This document shows positions 40,822-49,131 of a DNA stretch of 63,126 bases, one piece after another. Position numbers and translations under genes: made by a program. Under the pieces are notes generated by a model. That model ran no database searches, was not told where the DNA came from, and saw nothing but the letters and a program-made list of their open reading frames with translations. This DNA comes from Thermaurantimonas aggregans. Lineage in GTDB: Bacteria > Bacteroidota > Bacteroidia > Flavobacteriales > Schleiferiaceae. The first letter of the stretch is position 1. The number at the start of each line of letters is the position of its first letter. The stretch covers positions 1 to 63,126 of the forward strand of contig NZ_BHZE01000015.1 in assembly GCF_003851885.1 (NCBI RefSeq), given 5' to 3'.

Positions 40822-40836
40822 GATTTCTTTAAAAGA

Positions 40837-40866
40837 AAAAGGCCGGCTTCATTGCCGGCTTTTTTA
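40837..40866 (+). terminator. Terminator of the SusCD operon
   Basis: GCCGGC (40842-40847) pairs with GCCGGC (40854-40859) with AA/TT extensions on both sides and is followed by seven T, 20 bases after the SusD stop. Confidence 0.9.
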
Positions 40867-40937: not shown

Positions 40938-41567
40938 TTAAAATTCAACTCGAAAAGCTCTGTTTCCAAGTAAGATCACATCGCCATTTTTGAGTTCAGT
41001 AGGCTGATTAACGCGTATGTAGGTGGTTTGCAACGCGCTGCGATCAGAGAGCATCCATTTGCCGTCTTTATATTCCAATGCAGCCTGCTCGCGTGAGGTT
41101 ATGGTCATATTGCCCGGGTCGGTATTATCTCGGGTTAAAATGATTTTTTCGCCTTCAAATTCCAGAGTAGCTTCTTTTTCACCCTCCTTTGGTATGCGAA
41201 CGAGTTTAAGCACGTTTTTCTCAAATAGGGCCATGCGCGACGGGTCGATGGTTTTATTTACTTCGAGCTTACGGGCTTTGGGCGATGGGGCTGAAAATTC
41301 AGCCGGCACTGCTGCATTTGCAGGTGCTTTATGCGGTGGGTCTTGTGGCGGAAGCTGCTGACTCACGGGACGACTATTGTCCATATCCCAGGGGTCAATA
41401 TTGGCTGATTTGCCCACTACGGTGGCATTCACAGGAGCTGAAGAGGGAGATGGTGAGGGCATGGATGAATCTTCCTCACGAAGCGGATAGTTACAGCGCT
41501 TGCAGCGATGATTGCGAGGCTCATTGGCGTATCCGCAGTTAGGGCAGCGTACAGGTTTATCGGTCAT
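40938..41567 (-). CDS. Zinc-ribbon and FHA-like protein
   Basis: A 209-residue soluble protein, last gene of the signalling operon. It begins with a zinc ribbon (RCPNCGYAN, RCKRCNYPLREEDS), continues through a proline- and serine-rich linker (about 35-100), and ends in an FHA-like domain (TITSREQAALEYKDGKW, then NGDVILLGNRAFRVEF). The usual FHA SRxH histidine is replaced (SREQA), so phosphothreonine binding is uncertain. The zinc ribbon is nearly a copy of the small protein encoded just upstream. It is probably an adaptor of the kinase/phosphatase pair. Confidence 0.75.
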   Translation of the reverse strand: MTDKPVRCPNCGYANEPRNHRCKRCNYPLREEDSSMPSPSPSSAPVNATVVGKSANIDPWDMDNSRPVSQQLPPQDPPHKAPANAAVPAEFSAPSPKARKLEVNKTIDPSRMALFEKNVLKLVRIPKEGEKEATLEFEGEKIILTRDNTDPGNMTITSREQAALEYKDGKWMLSDRSALQTTYIRVNQPTELKNGDVILLGNRAFRVEF

Positions 41568-41588
41568 AGGGCGTTGAGTATTATTTGA

Positions 41589-41738
41589 TCAGGTGGAGGG
41601 GGTAGGTGGTGGACTGTCTTCTTCCTCAAATGGATAGTTACAACGTTTGCAACGCTTGGCTTTTATGTCATTAGCCGTGCCGCAGTTTGGGCATCTTTTA
41701 GTTTTGGGTTTTTTGTCAGGTCCTTCTTCTATTGCCAC
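41589..41738 (-). CDS. 49-residue zinc-ribbon protein
   Basis: A short gene with a GTG start 5 bases after the phosphatase stop. It encodes KRCPNCGTAND, a spacer, KRCKRCNYPFEEEDS and a Pro-rich end. The two CxxC pairs form one zinc ribbon, almost identical to the N-terminus of the following gene. It looks like a zinc-ribbon module cut loose by partial duplication, or a stand-alone adaptor. The conserved frame and clean spacing argue that it is made. Confidence 0.7.
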   Translation of the reverse strand: MAIEEGPDKKPKTKRCPNCGTANDIKAKRCKRCNYPFEEEDSPPPTPST

Positions 41739-41743
41739 GATTT

Positions 41744-43087
41744 TCAGAGTTTGGTTTTCTTTTCAAATGTAGCAGTACTGTCCTCCTGAGGTGGTTTTTT
41801 TTGTAAATCAATAGGTTTTTTGCTTAAAGTATCTTTTTCGCTTGGTGGGGAGATGGGTTTTACATTCACAGGAGTATCCTGCACCGGGATGGTAGTCGGC
41901 AGGGGTGTTTGGCGAACGACCGGAATCGGTTCGGATGAAGACTGTGGTGGTTTTTTCTGATTATTTGATGTGGGGGGACTTTGAGTATTTGGATCAGATG
42001 GCTTTGGCTTAATCGGTTCTATAGGTGAATTTGCATGAGTGGTATCAGTAGGATTAACGACCTGCGCGGAATCTGTTCTGGTAGAATCTGAATCTGTAGT
42101 AGTTGAGAAAATCGTTTTCCACGGCACTAAAATTCCGGCAGCAAATACCAGGACTAATATGCCAAACAGCATTAAGATGGGAAGTCGATTGTTTTCTTTT
42201 GTTTCAGTTGGCTGGGCATGATCAGTTTCCTGTTCGCTCTTAATGGTGCGAAGGGAGTTTCGACGGATGTCAGCAGGCTTGTCAAATGAAGTGCCTACCG
42301 GTACTTGTACGATTTCGGCCAGTATGAGGGTGACATTATCATGAGCACCTTCGGTTAGTGTGGCCTCGATGAGTTGATTGGCTGCGTCTTCAAAGTCGGA
42401 ATAGTGAGTGAGTATGTCTTGAATCACTGCATCTTGCAGCATGCCGTGGAGTCCGTCGGTGCAGAGGAGCACGCGGTCGCCGGCTTTCATCTGTAGAGAG
42501 GTGAGGTCTGGTTTTACTTTGCCAGGTTCACCGCCGAGGGATTGGAGGATGATATTGCCCTGAGGGTGGTAAAAGGCTTCTTCAGGGGTAATCTTGCCGG
42601 CATCTACCAATTGCTGTACAAAGGAGTGGTCTTTTGTAATGGGTCGAAGAGTTCCGTTTCTAAAAAGGTACGCACGGCTGTCGCCCACCCAGGCAATGTG
42701 AAGCTGATCGCCCAAGGCGAGGGCAGCTACAAGCGTAGTGCCCATTCCGCTTTTTCCTGTATCAGATTGAGCGGCTTCATAAATTTTTTTATTGGCTTCT
42801 ACGACAGCATTTTTGAGAAAATCTGAAGGGTCAGTCTTTTTTGAATCGAAGCCAGAAAAGGCTTTTTTCATATGCATCACGGCCAGTTCAGAAGCTACTT
42901 CACCGGCATTAGCCCCGCCCATGCCGTCAGCCACTACCCACAGGGCAACGCTTTCTTTTATGTCGTAAAGGCGGCTGGCATCGAAGTACCAGTTGTCAAA
43001 ACGCTTGTCGGGGTTTAGGATGAAGTTGTCTTCGTTGTGATCGCGAACCAGCCCTTGATGTGTGCGCGCCGTGATGCGGTATTTCAT
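41744..43087 (-). CDS. Membrane-anchored PP2C-type Ser/Thr phosphatase
   Basis: It removes phosphate from Ser/Thr and should oppose the kinase in the same operon. The catalytic domain (about 1-255) has all metal-site motifs: DHNEDN, VADGMGG, VGDSRAYLFRNG, CTDGLHG and AHDNVTLIL. A membrane helix follows (about 300-320, LPILMLFGILVLVFAAGIL), then about 120 residues rich in Pro, Ser and Thr that should lie in the periplasm. It starts with ATG 14 bases after the FHA-protease stop. The periplasmic tail is unusual for a PP2C and may touch cell-wall or partner proteins. Confidence 0.93.
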   Translation of the reverse strand: MKYRITARTHQGLVRDHNEDNFILNPDKRFDNWYFDASRLYDIKESVALWVVADGMGGANAGEVASELAVMHMKKAFSGFDSKKTDPSDFLKNAVVEANKKIYEAAQSDTGKSGMGTTLVAALALGDQLHIAWVGDSRAYLFRNGTLRPITKDHSFVQQLVDAGKITPEEAFYHPQGNIILQSLGGEPGKVKPDLTSLQMKAGDRVLLCTDGLHGMLQDAVIQDILTHYSDFEDAANQLIEATLTEGAHDNVTLILAEIVQVPVGTSFDKPADIRRNSLRTIKSEQETDHAQPTETKENNRLPILMLFGILVLVFAAGILVPWKTIFSTTTDSDSTRTDSAQVVNPTDTTHANSPIEPIKPKPSDPNTQSPPTSNNQKKPPQSSSEPIPVVRQTPLPTTIPVQDTPVNVKPISPPSEKDTLSKKPIDLQKKPPQEDSTATFEKKTKL

Positions 43088-43101
43088 GGCAATTAGGGTA
43101 T

Positions 43102-44709
43102 TTATTTGGGAATTTGGGAGACAGGAGTGTAAACAGAAATGGTATTTCTAAATTTTCCGGAAACTATACCAACCGCCTTTATTTTTCCATCTTTCATCGT
43201 AAATATTGGCCCTCCAGAGTTACCTTGCGTGGTACCCATTGATGCAGCAAAAATGTATCCAGTATTGTCGTCTAAGCCATCAATGGTAGATACAGCTTCT
43301 CCATAAATGGGTTTAAAAGAGCTTTTCGATATATTTGCTCCATATCCAGCTGGATAACCGAATACATATAGAGGTGTCATGTATTTTAAACTCTTTGACA
43401 ATTCTCGATCAATTTCAATATTCCCCGACTGATTTACTTCGAAATATGCCCAATCTCCATCATTCATATCATCTACTAAAAGTGGAAGTTTAAAGGAAGG
43501 ATCATTAGGGTTTGCACCAAAAATTTTTGCAAGGAATTCATAGATTTGTTGCTGTCGACTATCTGATGGTTTACTAATATCTACGATGATTTTTTCTTGT
43601 TTGTTACCGGTCCCTTTTACATCGTTATACGTGAATGTAAACCTTTTGCCATCGGGAGAGAATATTTCATACCTGATATCTAGTGCCTTTTTTTCATAAA
43701 GTAAAATATTTGCTAATATTTCTTCTTTATTAAGAAAAATATGCTCAATATCATCGAAATCGACTAGCAAATACGTGGGAGTAACACAATGTTTTGCTGT
43801 GACTATTTTATTTTCATTTGTCAAAAAACAAGTACAGGAGCCACTCATTAATTCGATTGTGTTTGTGCCGGTTTTTAATGACATTGTCGTTTTCATAAAT
43901 AATACATCGTTGATAACATTTTTTATTAATTCTTGAGCCTCCTCAGTGTTTGTTTTTGAAGGTTGAGCAGGAGGTGGTGTAACTGTAGAAGGTGTTTTAG
44001 GTATCCTGGCTACTTTATTTCTCAAATCTTTAATTTCCTGCTGTGAATACCCCAGTGCAGCCATTAGAGAATCGCTTTGTTGCTTGCTTTTTTGTTCCAG
44101 TTCGGTAGCGCGCTTCACAGCATCGGCCAATTCTTGTTGAAATTGCTTGTCCTTAAGACTATCCTGCCAGATGTAATAGCCTCCACCGCTCAATGTAAGC
44201 AGCAGCAATACAGACATCACAGCCAGAGCTGTTTTGTAGGGTCGCAGGGCTTGCTTGCCAAAGAGCGATAGGCGACGGGTGAGGCTGATGGAGTTGGCCT
44301 TGTTGTTTTTCGGTATCAGGAAGGTCATTTTGGGCCCTTCGAGGCTGAGCTGAATGGTGTCGCCGTTTTGCAGATACCAGCGGTTTTGCACCGGCCGGCC
44401 GTTAAGTAGGGTAGGGTTGCTCTTAGAGAGATGAATGAGTACATATTGGCTACCTTCCTTCTGAATGGCGGCATGTTTTCGGCTCACGGTGGGGTACTTG
44501 TCGCTGATGCGGATGCCGCAGGAGGCGTCGCGACCGATTTCGATGTAGTTTACTATCACATCTTCGCGGCTGCCGGCCTTATGAAAATCGTCAGAGGTCA
44601 AAAATTCGAGGCTAAAGTAGTTGGTACTACCGCTCAGAGCGCTAAAGCCTGCTCCGATGGATTGGCGAAATTTGGCTGCGCCGGTCATGTTTTGTGTAGC
44701 TCGTTCCAT
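43102..44709 (-). CDS. Transmembrane FHA-trypsin-like serine protease
   Basis: A 535-residue protein that joins a cytoplasmic phosphothreonine reader to a periplasmic protease. The FHA domain (about 30-140) has IEIGRDASCGIRI, TVSRKHAAI and NPTLLNGRPV, with the key Arg, Ser, His and Asn present. One membrane helix (about 163-182) and a coiled coil follow. The rest is a trypsin-like fold with IVTAKHCV (catalytic His) and GTTQGNSGGPIF (catalytic Ser); the Asp is probably in the DDMNDGDWAYF region. It sits between the channel gene and the phosphatase gene, 5 and 14 bases from each. Confidence 0.85.
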   Translation of the reverse strand: MERATQNMTGAAKFRQSIGAGFSALSGSTNYFSLEFLTSDDFHKAGSREDVIVNYIEIGRDASCGIRISDKYPTVSRKHAAIQKEGSQYVLIHLSKSNPTLLNGRPVQNRWYLQNGDTIQLSLEGPKMTFLIPKNNKANSISLTRRLSLFGKQALRPYKTALAVMSVLLLLTLSGGGYYIWQDSLKDKQFQQELADAVKRATELEQKSKQQSDSLMAALGYSQQEIKDLRNKVARIPKTPSTVTPPPAQPSKTNTEEAQELIKNVINDVLFMKTTMSLKTGTNTIELMSGSCTCFLTNENKIVTAKHCVTPTYLLVDFDDIEHIFLNKEEILANILLYEKKALDIRYEIFSPDGKRFTFTYNDVKGTGNKQEKIIVDISKPSDSRQQQIYEFLAKIFGANPNDPSFKLPLLVDDMNDGDWAYFEVNQSGNIEIDRELSKSLKYMTPLYVFGYPAGYGANISKSSFKPIYGEAVSTIDGLDDNTGYIFAASMGTTQGNSGGPIFTMKDGKIKAVGIVSGKFRNTISVYTPVSQIPK

Positions 44710-44714
44710 GTTGT

Positions 44715-45473
44715 TTATTCTTTATAAATGCGGTTAATGAGGTTTTCGATTACGTATTCTTCCAGTCGTATGTGAAAGCGCTCGAGCCGTTCCTGCACGC
44801 TGTGGATGTACAGCATCAGAATCAGGCTGAGAAAGAGCGCCACCAATGTGGTGTCAAAGGCTATGTTAAGCGCTGAGGTCACTTTGGCGATGCCTTCAGG
44901 CGTCATGGCTTCGTTGGCAAAGCCGAGCGATTGAGCGATGCCGATAATGGTGCCAATAAAGCCTACCGAAGGAATGGCCCAAGCAGCGTAGCGGATGTAG
45001 CTCTGGCGCGATTCGGCATCGGCCATGTTGATTTTGCTTTGGCTGGTTACGATTTCGAGGGCTTCGGAAGTGGATTTGTTGGCGCGAAACTTTGTACACG
45101 CCTTTTTGATCATATCGGTGAGGAAGTACTTGCGGTACTTTTCCCTGCTGATGGCTTCGAGTTTTATTTGTGCCACGTCAGCCGGAGAGAGCACGTATTG
45201 CTCTTTTTCGGGAAGAAGGCGGAAGGTGTAGGCTTTTTCCTCTTCCGTGATTTCCCGGCTAATGGCCCATAGTTCCATTACTCCAAAAAAGAAAATAAAG
45301 TAGGTAACTCCCTGCACAATGCCAGCCGGCAATTCGCCACCTAGCAAAATGGCTATACGCCGTGCTCCGGTGCCTTCTTCAGTGGTGGTGTAAAACAGCG
45401 CCAATATGACCATCAGTACTACCGCTGCTGCGGCTGAGATGAGGATGCGCGTAAATCGGTTGTTCATACTCAA
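44715..45473 (-). CDS. MotA/TolQ/ExbB-type proton channel subunit
   Basis: A 252-residue inner-membrane protein with four hydrophobic helices (about 7-29, 52-76, 165-190, 206-232) and a cytoplasmic domain between the second and third. The last two helices carry the family's pattern: AIPSVGFIGTIIGIAQSLGF and LNIAFDTTLVALFLSLILM, with the conserved Thr and small residues that line the channel. Such proteins form a ring around a partner with a membrane aspartate. The gene overlaps the vWA gene (ATGA), which provides that partner-like helix. Confidence 0.88.
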   Translation of the reverse strand: MSMNNRFTRILISAAAAVVLMVILALFYTTTEEGTGARRIAILLGGELPAGIVQGVTYFIFFFGVMELWAISREITEEEKAYTFRLLPEKEQYVLSPADVAQIKLEAISREKYRKYFLTDMIKKACTKFRANKSTSEALEIVTSQSKINMADAESRQSYIRYAAWAIPSVGFIGTIIGIAQSLGFANEAMTPEGIAKVTSALNIAFDTTLVALFLSLILMLYIHSVQERLERFHIRLEEYVIENLINRIYKE

Positions 45474-46435
45474 TCGAATTTTATGAGAAAACCATTGCCA
45501 TTTTCTTGCGTCAGGCGTTCGAGAAATTTGACCTTAATAGCATTGGGATCGTCGAAAAAGTCGCGACCAACTCCGATGGCGTTGACCTGAATATTGCCGG
45601 GATTGCGCTGGCGCATGAAGGCGAGGATTTCTTCCGAAAGTTTGTTGGAGTCGTCACCTTGGCGGCAACCGGGCTCACCGTCGGTCATCAGCACAATGTC
45701 GGTTAGGCCGGTGTAGGTGTTCATCACATATTCCAATGCTTCGCGGATGGGAGTACCGCCTTTGGCCTTGAAAGTGCGAATAAACTGGCTCAGCGACTCT
45801 TTATTTGCTTCGGTCATGGGCTGTAGCGCGCCAAAATTGGCCTTATTATCACAGTCGCTCTGATAAGGAAAACGCATGACATCCACATTGTAGGATTCGT
45901 CCATCGTCGAAATGAGCATGCGCAGACCGGCTTTTACGGGGCTGAGTCGATCTTCGTTGAAGTTGTTGCTAATCATGCTGCCCGATACATCTACCACAAA
46001 GACGATGGACTTGCCGCGGAAGCTGAAACCTCGAGTAGGTGTTTTTTTCGGCGGGCAGTTGCTTTGTAATGTCAGCCCACAGTTGTCCATCCATTGTTTG
46101 TACTTTTTCAAGTCTTCTACTTGAGCTTGAAGTTTTTCGACTTGTTCTTTTAGCTGTTGCGTATTTTGAACGGCTTGTTGGAGTTCTTTTTCCACCTTTT
46201 CCATTTGCTGCATGATTTGCTGCAGCACTTTTTTATCAACCGAATTCTCCAGCTGTTGCATCTTTTGCTTTAAGTCTTGCACCTCTATACCCAAATCTTT
46301 TAAGGCATCGGCAGCATCTTTGCTTTTGATGTCCATTTTTGGAACGATCACAAAGAGGATGATCACTGCGGCCAGAGCACCGGATAGCAGGTCGAGGAAG
46401 GAGATGGAAAATACCTGAAGTTCCTTTTTGGCCAT
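45470..46435 (-). CDS. Membrane-anchored von Willebrand A protein, ExbD/MotB-like N-terminus
   Basis: A 321-residue protein with a short cytoplasmic start, one membrane helix (about 11-33, FLDLLSGALAAVIILFVIVP) and Asp15 at its inner end, as in ExbD/MotB subunits. A coiled coil (about 50-115) and a vWA domain (about 145-321) follow. The MIDAS motif DVSGSM and the later LMTDGEPG are intact, so it should bind a metal and a partner protein. The vWA part should face the periplasm. It takes the place where MotB and ExbD carry a peptidoglycan- or TonB-binding domain. Confidence 0.82.
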   Translation of the reverse strand: MAKKELQVFSISFLDLLSGALAAVIILFVIVPKMDIKSKDAADALKDLGIEVQDLKQKMQQLENSVDKKVLQQIMQQMEKVEKELQQAVQNTQQLKEQVEKLQAQVEDLKKYKQWMDNCGLTLQSNCPPKKTPTRGFSFRGKSIVFVVDVSGSMISNNFNEDRLSPVKAGLRMLISTMDESYNVDVMRFPYQSDCDNKANFGALQPMTEANKESLSQFIRTFKAKGGTPIREALEYVMNTYTGLTDIVLMTDGEPGCRQGDDSNKLSEEILAFMRQRNPGNIQVNAIGVGRDFFDDPNAIKVKFLERLTQENGNGFLIKFD

Positions 46436-46436
46436 A

Positions 46437-47750
46437 TCACCGGTGTTTTACTATCACTTTTAAGGTGGTGTCGCCAAAGGTGATGATGTCGCCAATGTGG
46501 AGCTCTATGCCCTGCTGTCCGGCTTCTACACCATTTACCAAGGTTCCGTTGGTACTGGGTCTGTATTGGCCATTGGTCACATCTATGCGTGTTTGTCCGT
46601 CGCTGATCAGCCATTTTTTGTGCACTCGATCTCGAATAATCGTGGCATGAAACCGGCTGATGTAGCTGGTGTGGTGCTCTACGATGCCGATGTGGTTGGC
46701 CTGTGGCCACTCCGGATTGTACCAGCCTATGTAGATGATATCACCGGTGAGCTCAGCCTGGCGCGAGAGATTGTAAATGCGTCCCGGTTCGTCGCCATGC
46801 ATCACTTCCAGACCTACAATGTGCTGGTCGAAGTGTATGTGCTGATTGCTCTTGTGGTCAGAGGCATTGAGCATATCTAGTAGTTCGTTGGCGCTTTGGG
46901 CGCGCTTTTTATAGTCATGATGTAGTGATTTTTCAAAAATTCCTGTCCAATGATCAGGGATGCCAGGTAAGTGCATGCGGGCATCATCCCACTGGCCTTT
47001 GTTGGCGCGAAGCACATATGGGCCGATGTGTTCTTCGCTTTCAAGAGGGCCGAAAGGCAGCTTGCCGGTTAGAATTTCGTAGAATGTAGCTCCAAACGAA
47101 AACAAGTCGGTAGCCGGACTCATGGCTTTGAAGGAAATTTTCTGATTAAGCTGCTCTGGCGGCATGTAGGCGTAGGTGCCAAATACAGCCTCAGCATGCC
47201 CGAGAAAGTTTCGGCGCGTCATGCGCGCATTCTGAAAACCAGCGATCCCAAAGTCAGTGAGCTTTGCATTGCCCTCGGCGTCCATTAAAATGTTTACGGG
47301 CTTTAGATCGCGGTGTATCACGCCATTTTCATGTAACGCTTTTAAGCCCAGTAGGCATTGAACGGCCAGGCGATCCACTTCGTCGTAGGAGCTGTAGTTG
47401 ATCACGAGCTTTTCCAGAGAACCACCGGCACAATACTCCATTACCATGAAAGGATTGCCTTTATGCTCTCCTTTGTCTATAGATCTTACCAAAAATGGGC
47501 TGTCGATCTGGCCACAAGTGTATTCGCGCTCAAAGCGCTGGCCGAAGGTCTTTCTCTCCTCCGGCATCAGCTCCCAAAACTTCATAATTTTGAGCGCTAC
47601 AGTGCTGTCTGTAGTTCTGTTCTTTGCTTTTACCACAATGCCAAACGTGCCTTCACCCAGAAACTTATCGACCTGATAGCGGTCGATGAGGTCACCTTCG
47701 TAAAAAATCACTTTCTCAGGCACAGCTGTCATTACAGTGAGTTTGCTCAC
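46437..47750 (-). CDS. Ser/Thr protein kinase with C-terminal FHA domain
   Basis: A 437-residue soluble eukaryotic-type kinase, first gene of the operon. The catalytic core has LGEGTFG (31-37), the ATP lysine in VALKIMKF (Lys54), HRDLKPVN (147-154) and DFGIAGF (166-172), all in active form. The C-terminal FHA domain (about 335-430) has HTSYISRFHATI and NGTLVNG. The kinase has no membrane helix. The vWA gene starts one base after its stop. An ATG six codons in (MTAVPEK) is also possible. Confidence 0.95.
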   Translation of the reverse strand: MSKLTVMTAVPEKVIFYEGDLIDRYQVDKFLGEGTFGIVVKAKNRTTDSTVALKIMKFWELMPEERKTFGQRFEREYTCGQIDSPFLVRSIDKGEHKGNPFMVMEYCAGGSLEKLVINYSSYDEVDRLAVQCLLGLKALHENGVIHRDLKPVNILMDAEGNAKLTDFGIAGFQNARMTRRNFLGHAEAVFGTYAYMPPEQLNQKISFKAMSPATDLFSFGATFYEILTGKLPFGPLESEEHIGPYVLRANKGQWDDARMHLPGIPDHWTGIFEKSLHHDYKKRAQSANELLDMLNASDHKSNQHIHFDQHIVGLEVMHGDEPGRIYNLSRQAELTGDIIYIGWYNPEWPQANHIGIVEHHTSYISRFHATIIRDRVHKKWLISDGQTRIDVTNGQYRPSTNGTLVNGVEAGQQGIELHIGDIITFGDTTLKVIVKHR

Positions 47751-48410: not shown

Positions 48411-48442
48411 TTACAACTTGGTCACGTCACCATTGCTAAACA

Positions 48443-48480
48443 GCTCCCTTTAAAGGGATGAGTTTTTTTTATTTTTTTTT
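48443..48480 (+). terminator. Terminator of aroK
   Basis: The palindrome TCCCTTTAAAGGGA (48445-48458) is followed by two long T tracts, 30-70 bases after the aroK stop. The T tract runs directly into the start of repeat A2. Confidence 0.65.
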
Positions 48481-48621
48481 GGGCGTGCCCCTCACCTCCT
48501 TCGCTTCGCTCAGTCGTTCGGGTCGGCGTGCTCCGGGGTACGCTTCGCTTCCGTGCTACGGCTCCGCTCTGCTACGCCTTCGCCCCGCGCTGGCGCGCGC
48601 CCTTCGCATGCCTCACGCGAG
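48481..48621 (+). repeat. GC-rich dispersed repeat, copy A2
   Basis: A 141-bp block almost the same as the minus-strand copy A1 at 575-713, starting GGGCGTGCCCCTCACC and ending CATGCCTCACGCGAGG. Differences are mostly in the central short CTTCGC words. It lies in the sense orientation after aroK. I see no coding signal that differs from what the composition gives by chance. Confidence 0.85.
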
Positions 48622-48676
48622 GAAGGGTGATAAAAAATGAAACTCACATCTCTGGCCATATCGATGAATGCTTTTT

Positions 48677-48788
48677 TTTTACTCACCACCCCATCCCCCC
48701 TACCGACGAAAGCTCTTAAGAGCTTTGTCGGCATCTGTGGCTCTCTATGACCTGCGGACGCAATGAGAGAGATTTAGGGTGAGTAAAA
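48677..48788. repeat. 112-bp element with 11-bp inverted ends
   Basis: TTTTACTCACC (48677-48687) and GGTGAGTAAAA (48778-48788) are perfect inverted ends. Inside lies a 29-base near-perfect palindrome (48703-48731: CCGACGAAAGCTC and its mirror). It codes for nothing. It could be a small non-autonomous transposon (MITE-like) or a structured RNA. No target-site duplication is obvious at the borders. Confidence 0.5.
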
Positions 48789-48871
48789 TGGATCTGCTCA
48801 AATCTGTAATTGGATCTGTAAAAATCTGTGTCCCCAGTTTTAGTTAAAGTTAAAGTACAAAGTTTTTAAAA
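48789..48871. other. Degenerate ATCTGT-rich spacer
   Basis: The words GGATCTG, AATCTGTAA, GGATCTGTA and AATCTGTGTC recur within 45 bases. A related ATCTGTGG lies inside the preceding element. No gene. Confidence 0.4.
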
Positions 48872-49112
48872 GCGGCCTGAGGCCGCTACCGCGTGAGGGA
48901 TAGAAGCGGATATGAGCCGCAGCGGGTGGGGCACAGTGGCACCAGGGCGAGGCTGGCTGGCCCGAAGGGCAGACAACGCAGCCCTGGTGTGGTGGATTTA
49001 CAGCCTCTTGATTGGGCAAGTAGGATGTGCCACCCCCACCCGCAAGGCGAATATGAGCGGATAGCCCGGCCCGAGCAGCTGCCCGATAGGGCAACCTGCG
49101 AGGGACACGCCC
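48872..49112 (-). repeat. GC-rich dispersed repeat, subtype B
   Basis: Read on the minus strand, this 241-bp block starts GGGCGTGTCCCTCGC and ends near CCCTCACGCGGTAGCGG, so both ends match copies A1 and A2 while the middle differs (CTCGGGCCGGGCTATCCGCTC and GGCTCATATCCGCTTC types of words). It begins 20 bases after the trhO stop, with the same TTATTTGGGCG junction as A1. The GCGGCCTGAGGCCGC palindrome (48872-48886) closes it. Non-coding. Confidence 0.8.
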
Positions 49113-49131
49113 AAATAAGAAAAATGAAAAA

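Follow-up and report, generated by a model that had tools for sequence, protein, structure and literature searches.

The window analyzed here, that is, the whole stretch of 63,126 nucleotides of contig NZ_BHZE01000015.1 (assembly GCF_003851885.1) of Thermaurantimonas aggregans (Bacteroidota), contains an operon of seven genes on the minus strand (positions 47750 to 40938). The original prediction, made from the sequence alone, had described this operon as a unit that couples a kinase, a phosphatase and FHA readers to an ExbB/MotA-type channel and a periplasmic protease. The seven minus-strand genes, their coordinates and their spacers of −4 to 21 bases were borne out by the open reading frame (ORF) coordinates, which give successive gaps of +1, −4, +5, +14, +5, and +21 bases.

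According to the Pfam analysis, the first gene (46437..47750, GTG start) encodes a Ser/Thr protein kinase of 437 aa (Pkinase, 2.8e-46) with a C-terminal FHA domain (4.2e-9). It is followed by the gene of a putative MotB/ExbD-like partner (45470..46435; 321 aa), which comprises an N-terminal helix with Asp15, a coiled coil and a periplasmic vWA domain (VWA_2, 7.5e-10), and by the gene of a MotA/TolQ/ExbB-like channel subunit (44715..45473, TTG start; 252 aa; MotA_ExbB, 1.2e-11). The fourth gene (43102..44709) encodes a 535 aa protein with a presumably cytoplasmic FHA domain (1.7e-16), one transmembrane helix, a coiled coil and a trypsin-like protease assigned to the periplasmic side (Trypsin, 8.5e-12). 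The product of the fifth gene (41744..43087; 447 aa) is a PP2C-type phosphatase (PP2C_2, 7.2e-19) with one transmembrane helix and a Pro/Ser/Thr-rich tail. The sixth gene (41589..41738), recognized as an ORF with a CPNCG...CKRC pattern, encodes a zinc-ribbon protein of 49 aa; its library matches are weak and sub-threshold, and support for the gene comes from its spacing and from the similarity of its product (3e-9) to a model of eight longer zinc-ribbon–FHA proteins. The last gene (40938..41567; 209 aa) combines a zinc ribbon (Zn_Ribbon_1, 0.0018, under its cut-off) with a C-terminal FHA domain (9.6e-6) and has homologues in cis in related operons. Thus, the predicted content was confirmed for the first five genes, while the description of the last two as "two zinc-ribbon proteins" was incomplete, since the last one also carries an FHA domain and the operon encodes three FHA proteins.

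Putative motor pair and the outer end of its arm

The MotA-like protein was assigned to the channel family with MotA_ExbB at 44.9 bits, the curated cut-off being 22.9. Its Thr175 and Thr209 are kept in 19/19 homologues, and Thr208 in 18/19. The vWA gene overlaps the MotA gene by 4 bases, and its product has a single hydrophobic segment, located at the N-terminus (residues 6–38) and including Asp15. This residue is identical in 8/8 vWA-type and 10/10 YfaP-type homologues (18/18 aligned sequences). In the metal ion-dependent adhesion site (MIDAS) of the vWA protein, Asp149, Ser153, and Asp252 are found in 8/8 sequences and Ser151 and Thr228 in 6/8, the pattern being intact in the window protein. 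The predicted model of the vWA part shows a vWA fold (best Foldseek match, E 1.1e-10). The Pfam analysis of the operon proteins revealed no ExbD- or MotB-like gene besides that of the vWA protein; the operon contains one MotB-vWA gene, with one match to it genome-wide. A vWA-protein match in G189 was considered as a distant motor partner and rejected, as its locus shows a coiled-coil M23-type peptidase (identified by eye).

The vWA protein is, therefore, probably the MotB/ExbD-type partner of the channel rather than a bystander, which sharpens the earlier description of the operon and matches a 2025 proposal for related pairs in the relevant passages of PMC12204202 (Mol Biol Evol). These passages describe membrane-tethered vWA proteins encoded beside tolQ-like genes without tolR or exbD, a conserved Asp in their pore helix, AF3 complexes modelled as 5:2, and a predominance of two heterologous vWA genes in these TPH-vWA loci. 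The window operon resembles the TPH-vWA pairs in having a putative N-terminal pore helix with a conserved Asp followed by a vWA domain, in the vWA gene adjoining a TolQ/MotA-like gene, and in the absence of tolR/exbD from the operon. It differs from them in having one vWA partner instead of two and in the addition of kinase, PP2C, FHA, and trypsin genes; the main text of PMC12204202 contains none of the words kinase, phosphatase, and protease.

The outer end of the motor arm was compared in 23 orthologous loci; the models recognized a vWA end in 5 of them and another domain in 10. In a single hhalign comparison, this alternative head was similar to E. coli YfaP (DUF2135) with a probability of 96.6 (E 4.9e-10), so that YfaP is a candidate homologue of the alternative head of the related operons, not of the window head. 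For five members, the lists of Pfam families at 0.05 (in two cases, the best 25 families) did not include DUF2135, and a model of the YfaP-type head had no Foldseek match with PDB structures at E ≤ 0.001. Unlike the related operons, a 4.5-kb stretch of E. coli K-12 has no motor or kinase gene annotated beside yfaP, and a search of the open-access library for DUF2135/YfaP/YfaS combinations matched only a riboswitch paper.

In the constructed MotA tree of 27 rows (16 vWA and 11 YfaP), the head type changes five times, and at least four of these changes are forced by well-supported branches. The 16 vWA rows include three split systems, a divergent branch and five pair-family loci; two vWA labels on this tree were assigned by eye (L225) and from the alignment (L094). 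A constant motor core with a varying outer end is as expected if the head binds a ligand, and the comparison supports the view that the head may serve as a ligand-binding module.

Kinases, phosphatase, FHA proteins and protease

In genome-wide searches, all FHA matches of the genome (three) and its single PP2C_2 match were located in the operon. The FHA-kinase aligns along its length with 11 homologues, and no transmembrane segment was found in it. The vWA, FHA-trypsin, and PP2C proteins have one membrane span each. In the PP2C protein, which scored 247.2 bits with the NCBIfam model Stp1_PP2C_phos (equivalog cut-off, 230), the hydrophobic segment occupies residues 299–329. In the FHA-trypsin protein, the transmembrane helix (residues 160–180) has basic residues on its N-terminal side, which favors an orientation with the FHA domain inside and the protease outside; the same orientation in the membrane would presumably apply to the other operon proteins. 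The FHA domain of this protein shows, in 9/9 aligned sequences, the typical GR, Ser, His, and NG residues, and the trypsin His, Asp, and GNSGGP motifs are intact in 9/9 aligned homologues.

A second kinase, absent from the window operon, belongs to the cluster in ten related operons; eight of these ten proteins, read by eye, have a membrane span and varied C-terminal parts. The only other Pkinase match of the T. aggregans genome is a lone 723 aa Ser/Thr kinase with an apparent membrane span, encoded on contig G000:C2 at ~183530–185701 (L245:5531-7702). Its kinase domain is nearest to those of the operonic second kinases, with an identity of up to 49%, versus ≤34% with the FHA-kinases. By this similarity, it seems to be an eighth member, and the genome seems to contain one system whose genes lie at two separate locations.

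Ser/Thr kinase, PP2C, and vWA genes also occur together in the TerY-P triads, with which the operon had been compared, and zinc ribbons are present in both systems. This comparison fails on layout. As far as the features given in PMC11090510 are concerned, the window kinase ends in an FHA domain instead of a C-terminal zinc ribbon, and the window vWA domain is fused to a membrane helix and a coiled coil as part of the motor arm instead of forming a free TerY-like protein; the window zinc ribbons are separate or fused to an FHA domain. Judging by this domain layout, the system is not TerY-P. Kinase, PP2C, and vWA neighbors and trypsin are noted in other conflict systems, with no MotA, in the relevant passages of PMC7159879, and the words vWA, FHA, and Bacteroid- do not occur in PMC12505986, which deals with MotAB evolution. 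The statement that no described system has exactly this gene set holds within the searches of open-access full text, where no paper describing it was recognized; subscription papers and preprints lie largely outside this search.

Recurrence and relatives of the gene set

Genes lying on the same strand within 8 kb of 23 orthologous MotA genes were counted in six frames and compared with those near ordinary ExbB/TolQ genes of the same phylum (n = 19). Kinase, PP2C, and FHA genes were found together in 14/23 orthologous loci versus 0/19 control loci, a count that favors the cases, since the detection models were built from case loci. Because of this difference, the gene set is no chance neighborhood; it is a recurrent unit, in which the predicted kinase, phosphatase, and FHA readers accompany the ExbB/MotA-type channel. 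Of the individual families, MotB-like genes were found near 18 of the 23 orthologous MotA genes, FHA near 20, kinase near 18, PP2C near 15, and trypsin near 10 (each 0/19 in the controls). Contig ends cut several case loci (among them L032, L100, L107, L108, L109, L113, and L225), which were counted as misses; L095, where the contig ends inside MotA, L195, and L181 were left out of the counts. An ORF-filtered variant, in which the filter hid genes under antisense ORFs, gave 13/22 versus 0/18.

The check for co-occurrence across Bacteroidota, which the original prediction had called for, thus found genes that recur as a unit, and the system as a whole is rare. When 395 genomes sampled from the phylum were searched with the MotA profile, 6 gave a match at E ≤ 1.4e-79, and the best match beyond these was 1.0e-11. 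Among the best 80 loci on contigs of named genomes, at least 17 orthologues were found at E ≤ 5e-53, and the rest begin at ~1e-27. In three Bacteroidota genomes, the MotA gene is accompanied by kinase and FHA genes but not by a motor partner, and a MotB-vWA gene lies beside a PP2C gene at a second locus. When the motor partner was searched for in 14 genomes, one had none and one had only a scrap at a contig end.

The loci L114–L176 (mostly proteobacterial and verrucomicrobial), which rank below the orthologues, contain a MotB-like match in 59/63 cases and two or more in 53/63. By the same models, a kinase is present in 14/63 of them, FHA in 3/63, and PP2C and trypsin in 0/63 each. By their gene content, these loci look like the published TPH-vWA pairs, so that the vWA-armed motor belongs to a known kind that was predicted recently. 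In a tree of 61 rows, the window MotA clade, the divergent branch, and 20 of these 63 loci are placed apart from 14 of the 15 ordinary ExbB/TolQ rows; the fifteenth (L226) has a very long branch and falls on the window side, its placement being unsure. The divergent branch consists of L032, L094, L225, and the cluster L181 of a Rhizobium plasmid, and it joins the window clade with modest support (81), which a smaller tree does not settle. PP2C, kinase, and FHA genes occur both in the window clade and in the divergent branch, and trypsin genes in the window clade.

The cluster of the Rhizobium leguminosarum plasmid (L181:3609-20646, unannotated) comprises two kinases, at least one of them with PDZ domains, two PP2C and two FHA proteins, MotA, a MotB-YfaP-type partner, and a 1610 aa low-complexity protein. 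Several related operons contain an extra gene between FHA-trypsin and PP2C, the product of which is apparently secreted (L098:12166-13164, L102:12385-13248, L104:12208-13137, L110:11658-12437, and L111:13381-14178); a sixth copy of this family lies near MotA in L105, and the family is absent from the window. Of these loci, L098 belongs to Phaeodactylibacter xiamenensis. The suggestion that this gene represents a dead trypsin was rejected, with a probability of 0.3 in profile comparison and no Pfam match for the two members tested.

Proposed mechanism and alternative explanations

We tentatively propose, with a rough probability of 0.45, that the operon encodes an ion-driven envelope capture device that is gated by phosphorylation and equipped with a tethered protease. 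On sequence grounds, the vWA protein would form a dimer encircled by five MotA-like subunits (5:2 type), with the N-terminal Asp15 helix in the pore, and the coiled coil would carry the two vWA heads into the periplasm. Comparison of the loci suggests that one and the same motor can carry either a vWA or a YfaP/DUF2135-like head and that the head binds a ligand. The FHA-kinase and the transmembrane sensor kinase encoded elsewhere in the genome would phosphorylate threonine residues on the cytoplasmic side of the motor and its partners, and PP2C would remove these phosphates. The FHA domain of the membrane-anchored trypsin may dock on the phosphothreonines, so that the protease would be present at the motor only when the motor is phosphorylated. 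Ion flow would then turn or pull the heads, which would capture an envelope protein and pass it on to the anchored protease. Such a device would most likely serve to monitor or maintain the envelope or the cell surface; its architecture is surer than its role.

Several observations weigh against this proposal. The MotA-like protein matches solved motor structures weakly (PomA and TolQ, E 0.006–0.009 with the MotA profile), and residues 1–63 of the vWA protein, which include the supposed pore helix, have a predicted local distance difference test (pLDDT) score < 50 in the model; as a result, the assignment of the pore helix rests on sequence. In the FHA domain of the kinase, the "GR" arginine is replaced by Trp in 6 of 12 sequences, including the window protein, and is Arg in the other 6; this replacement raises the possibility that the ligand of this domain may not be phosphothreonine. 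In two Bdellovibrionota loci, L112:6010-7655 (Halobacteriovorax) and L113:7717-9320 (Bdellovibrio), the MotA and MotB-vWA pair of the window clade stands alone, with no kinase, phosphatase, or protease gene nearby, so that some uses of the motor do not depend on the signaling and protease genes. The L097 and L106 clusters lack trypsin, although their other members are present, and in the divergent branch (L032, L094, L225) the counterpart protein has at best a sub-threshold Pfam match (Trypsin_2, 0.0059, L032). A degenerate trypsin in that branch was considered for these three sequences; the Pfam match was under the cut-off, and the hhalign probability was 0.4. Such differences in cluster content speak against one role common to all members.

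It is unlikely, though conceivable, that the system is purely a signaling device, in which the MotA–vWA unit would sense force or an ion gradient, the trypsin and the kinases would be outputs, and nothing would be moved. Many of the parts are signaling proteins, and the varied C-terminal parts of the second kinases in the related operons are in line with this explanation. However, the conserved pore residues argue for a use of ion flow, and a swap restricted to the head domain does not follow from signaling alone.

Anti-phage defense of the Zorya type appears less likely still. According to this explanation, the motor would sense disturbance of the envelope by a phage and signal inward via the kinases, with growth arrest or the protease as effector. 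Zorya shares with the window operon a MotA/MotB-like core with an extra periplasmic domain, the MotA-like protein has a weak ZorA match (1.8e-5), and PADLOC kinase models give strong matches to the kinase (best 1.4e-61), although such models are generic. The patchy spread of the system in the phylum would also fit defense, as would the lack of strong matches among relatives (38 sampled relatives outside the genus gave no match better than 2.3e-5). However, while Zorya has a ZorA tail, a peptidoglycan-binding ZorB domain, and nuclease or helicase effectors in the relevant passages of PMC11890865, the window MotA-like protein has no long cytoplasmic tail (its 252 aa end 24 residues past the last hydrophobic segment), its partner ends in a vWA domain, not a peptidoglycan-binding domain, and the operon encodes no nuclease, helicase, or other known effector. 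ZorC/D and ZorE were not among the PADLOC matches listed for the seven proteins (for the kinase, the best 25 of 34). By this comparison of its proteins, the system is not Zorya.

The surroundings of the operon do not point to phage defense either. In the window, it is flanked by SusCD-like and shikimate kinase genes, and in the sister species it likewise adjoins the shikimate kinase gene. Among 72 flanking proteins from 14 loci, PADLOC detected 17 models at 1e-20 with one or two proteins each; type II restriction or methylase models account for 11 of these, and the others are mad3, Ppl, PDC-S15, and pAgo. With so few defense matches, a defense island was rejected. A mobile element was rejected as well, as no relative was found in phage records or viral contigs and the three plasmid relatives all show ≤42% identity. 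The guanine-cytosine (GC) content of the operon (46.7%; window, 43.7%) lies within the range of equal-sized window pieces (37.6–50.3%) and, thus, gives no composition sign of recent foreign origin. At its 3′ end, the operon has an intrinsic-terminator-like hairpin (~40836–40864, a GC-rich inverted repeat followed by a T run; no strand assigned) that is common to the convergent SusD-like gene. In a spacer at 48411–49131 of the window, the two strands have overlapping ORFs, apparently spurious, and comparison of the spacer with Rfam gave no match.

More distant MotA genes on cyanobacterial plasmids do lie in a defense context, which was counted in favor of the defense explanation. In L179:11824-14403 and L180:9542-12142, a MotA-like gene (466–470 aa) is accompanied by two small genes (153 and 231–236 aa), and the surroundings contain either CRISPR Cmr and viperin genes or DNA methylase, helicase, and SLATT genes. 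These loci possibly represent a defense-associated motor of another type.

Control by kinase, PP2C, and FHA proteins occurs in the threonine phosphorylation pathway of type VI secretion (PpkA/PppA/Fha), and the window operon shares this logic. It would suit a machine for motility, adhesion, or secretion, in which the motor would drive vWA adhesin heads for gliding or export and phosphorylation would serve as an on/off switch. The YfaP-like domain with which the heads swap is not known to be an adhesin; no match to the VipB/TssC sheath (PF05943), the one type VI gene searched for, was found in the genome, and no constant outer-membrane gene was noticed in the clusters, at which no search was aimed. 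Although the authors of PMC12204202 suggest, in the relevant passage, a gliding-like role for one family of vWA transducers, we regard this explanation as just as improbable as defense.

Taken as a whole, the earlier interpretation of the operon is partly supported, and the preferred reading remains that of an envelope capture device gated by phosphorylation. A more far-reaching and doubtful proposal is that the operon and its relatives form an as yet undescribed class of trans-envelope machines, in which a proton- or sodium-driven 5:2 motor would be switched by a dedicated eukaryote-type kinase and phosphatase via FHA docking, and exchangeable vWA/YfaP heads would catch proteins of the envelope and deliver them to a membrane-tethered trypsin on the periplasmic side.

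Ion-driven motors of the 5:2 type power flagella as well as the Ton, Tol, gliding, and Zorya systems. If the more far-reaching proposal is true, the system would be, to our knowledge, the first case in which Ser/Thr phosphorylation gates an ion-driven motor that is coupled to proteolysis in the periplasm. Since the gene set is compact and the sole PP2C_2 and FHA matches of the genome are in the operon, the results of gene deletions and of phosphoproteomics should be readily interpretable. DUF2135 would gain a functional context from the exchange of vWA and YfaP-like heads on one motor, and a branch of motors with its own phospho-signaling and tethered periplasmic protease would offer a clear, testable example of how control is exerted on a motor from inside and on what the motor acts outside.

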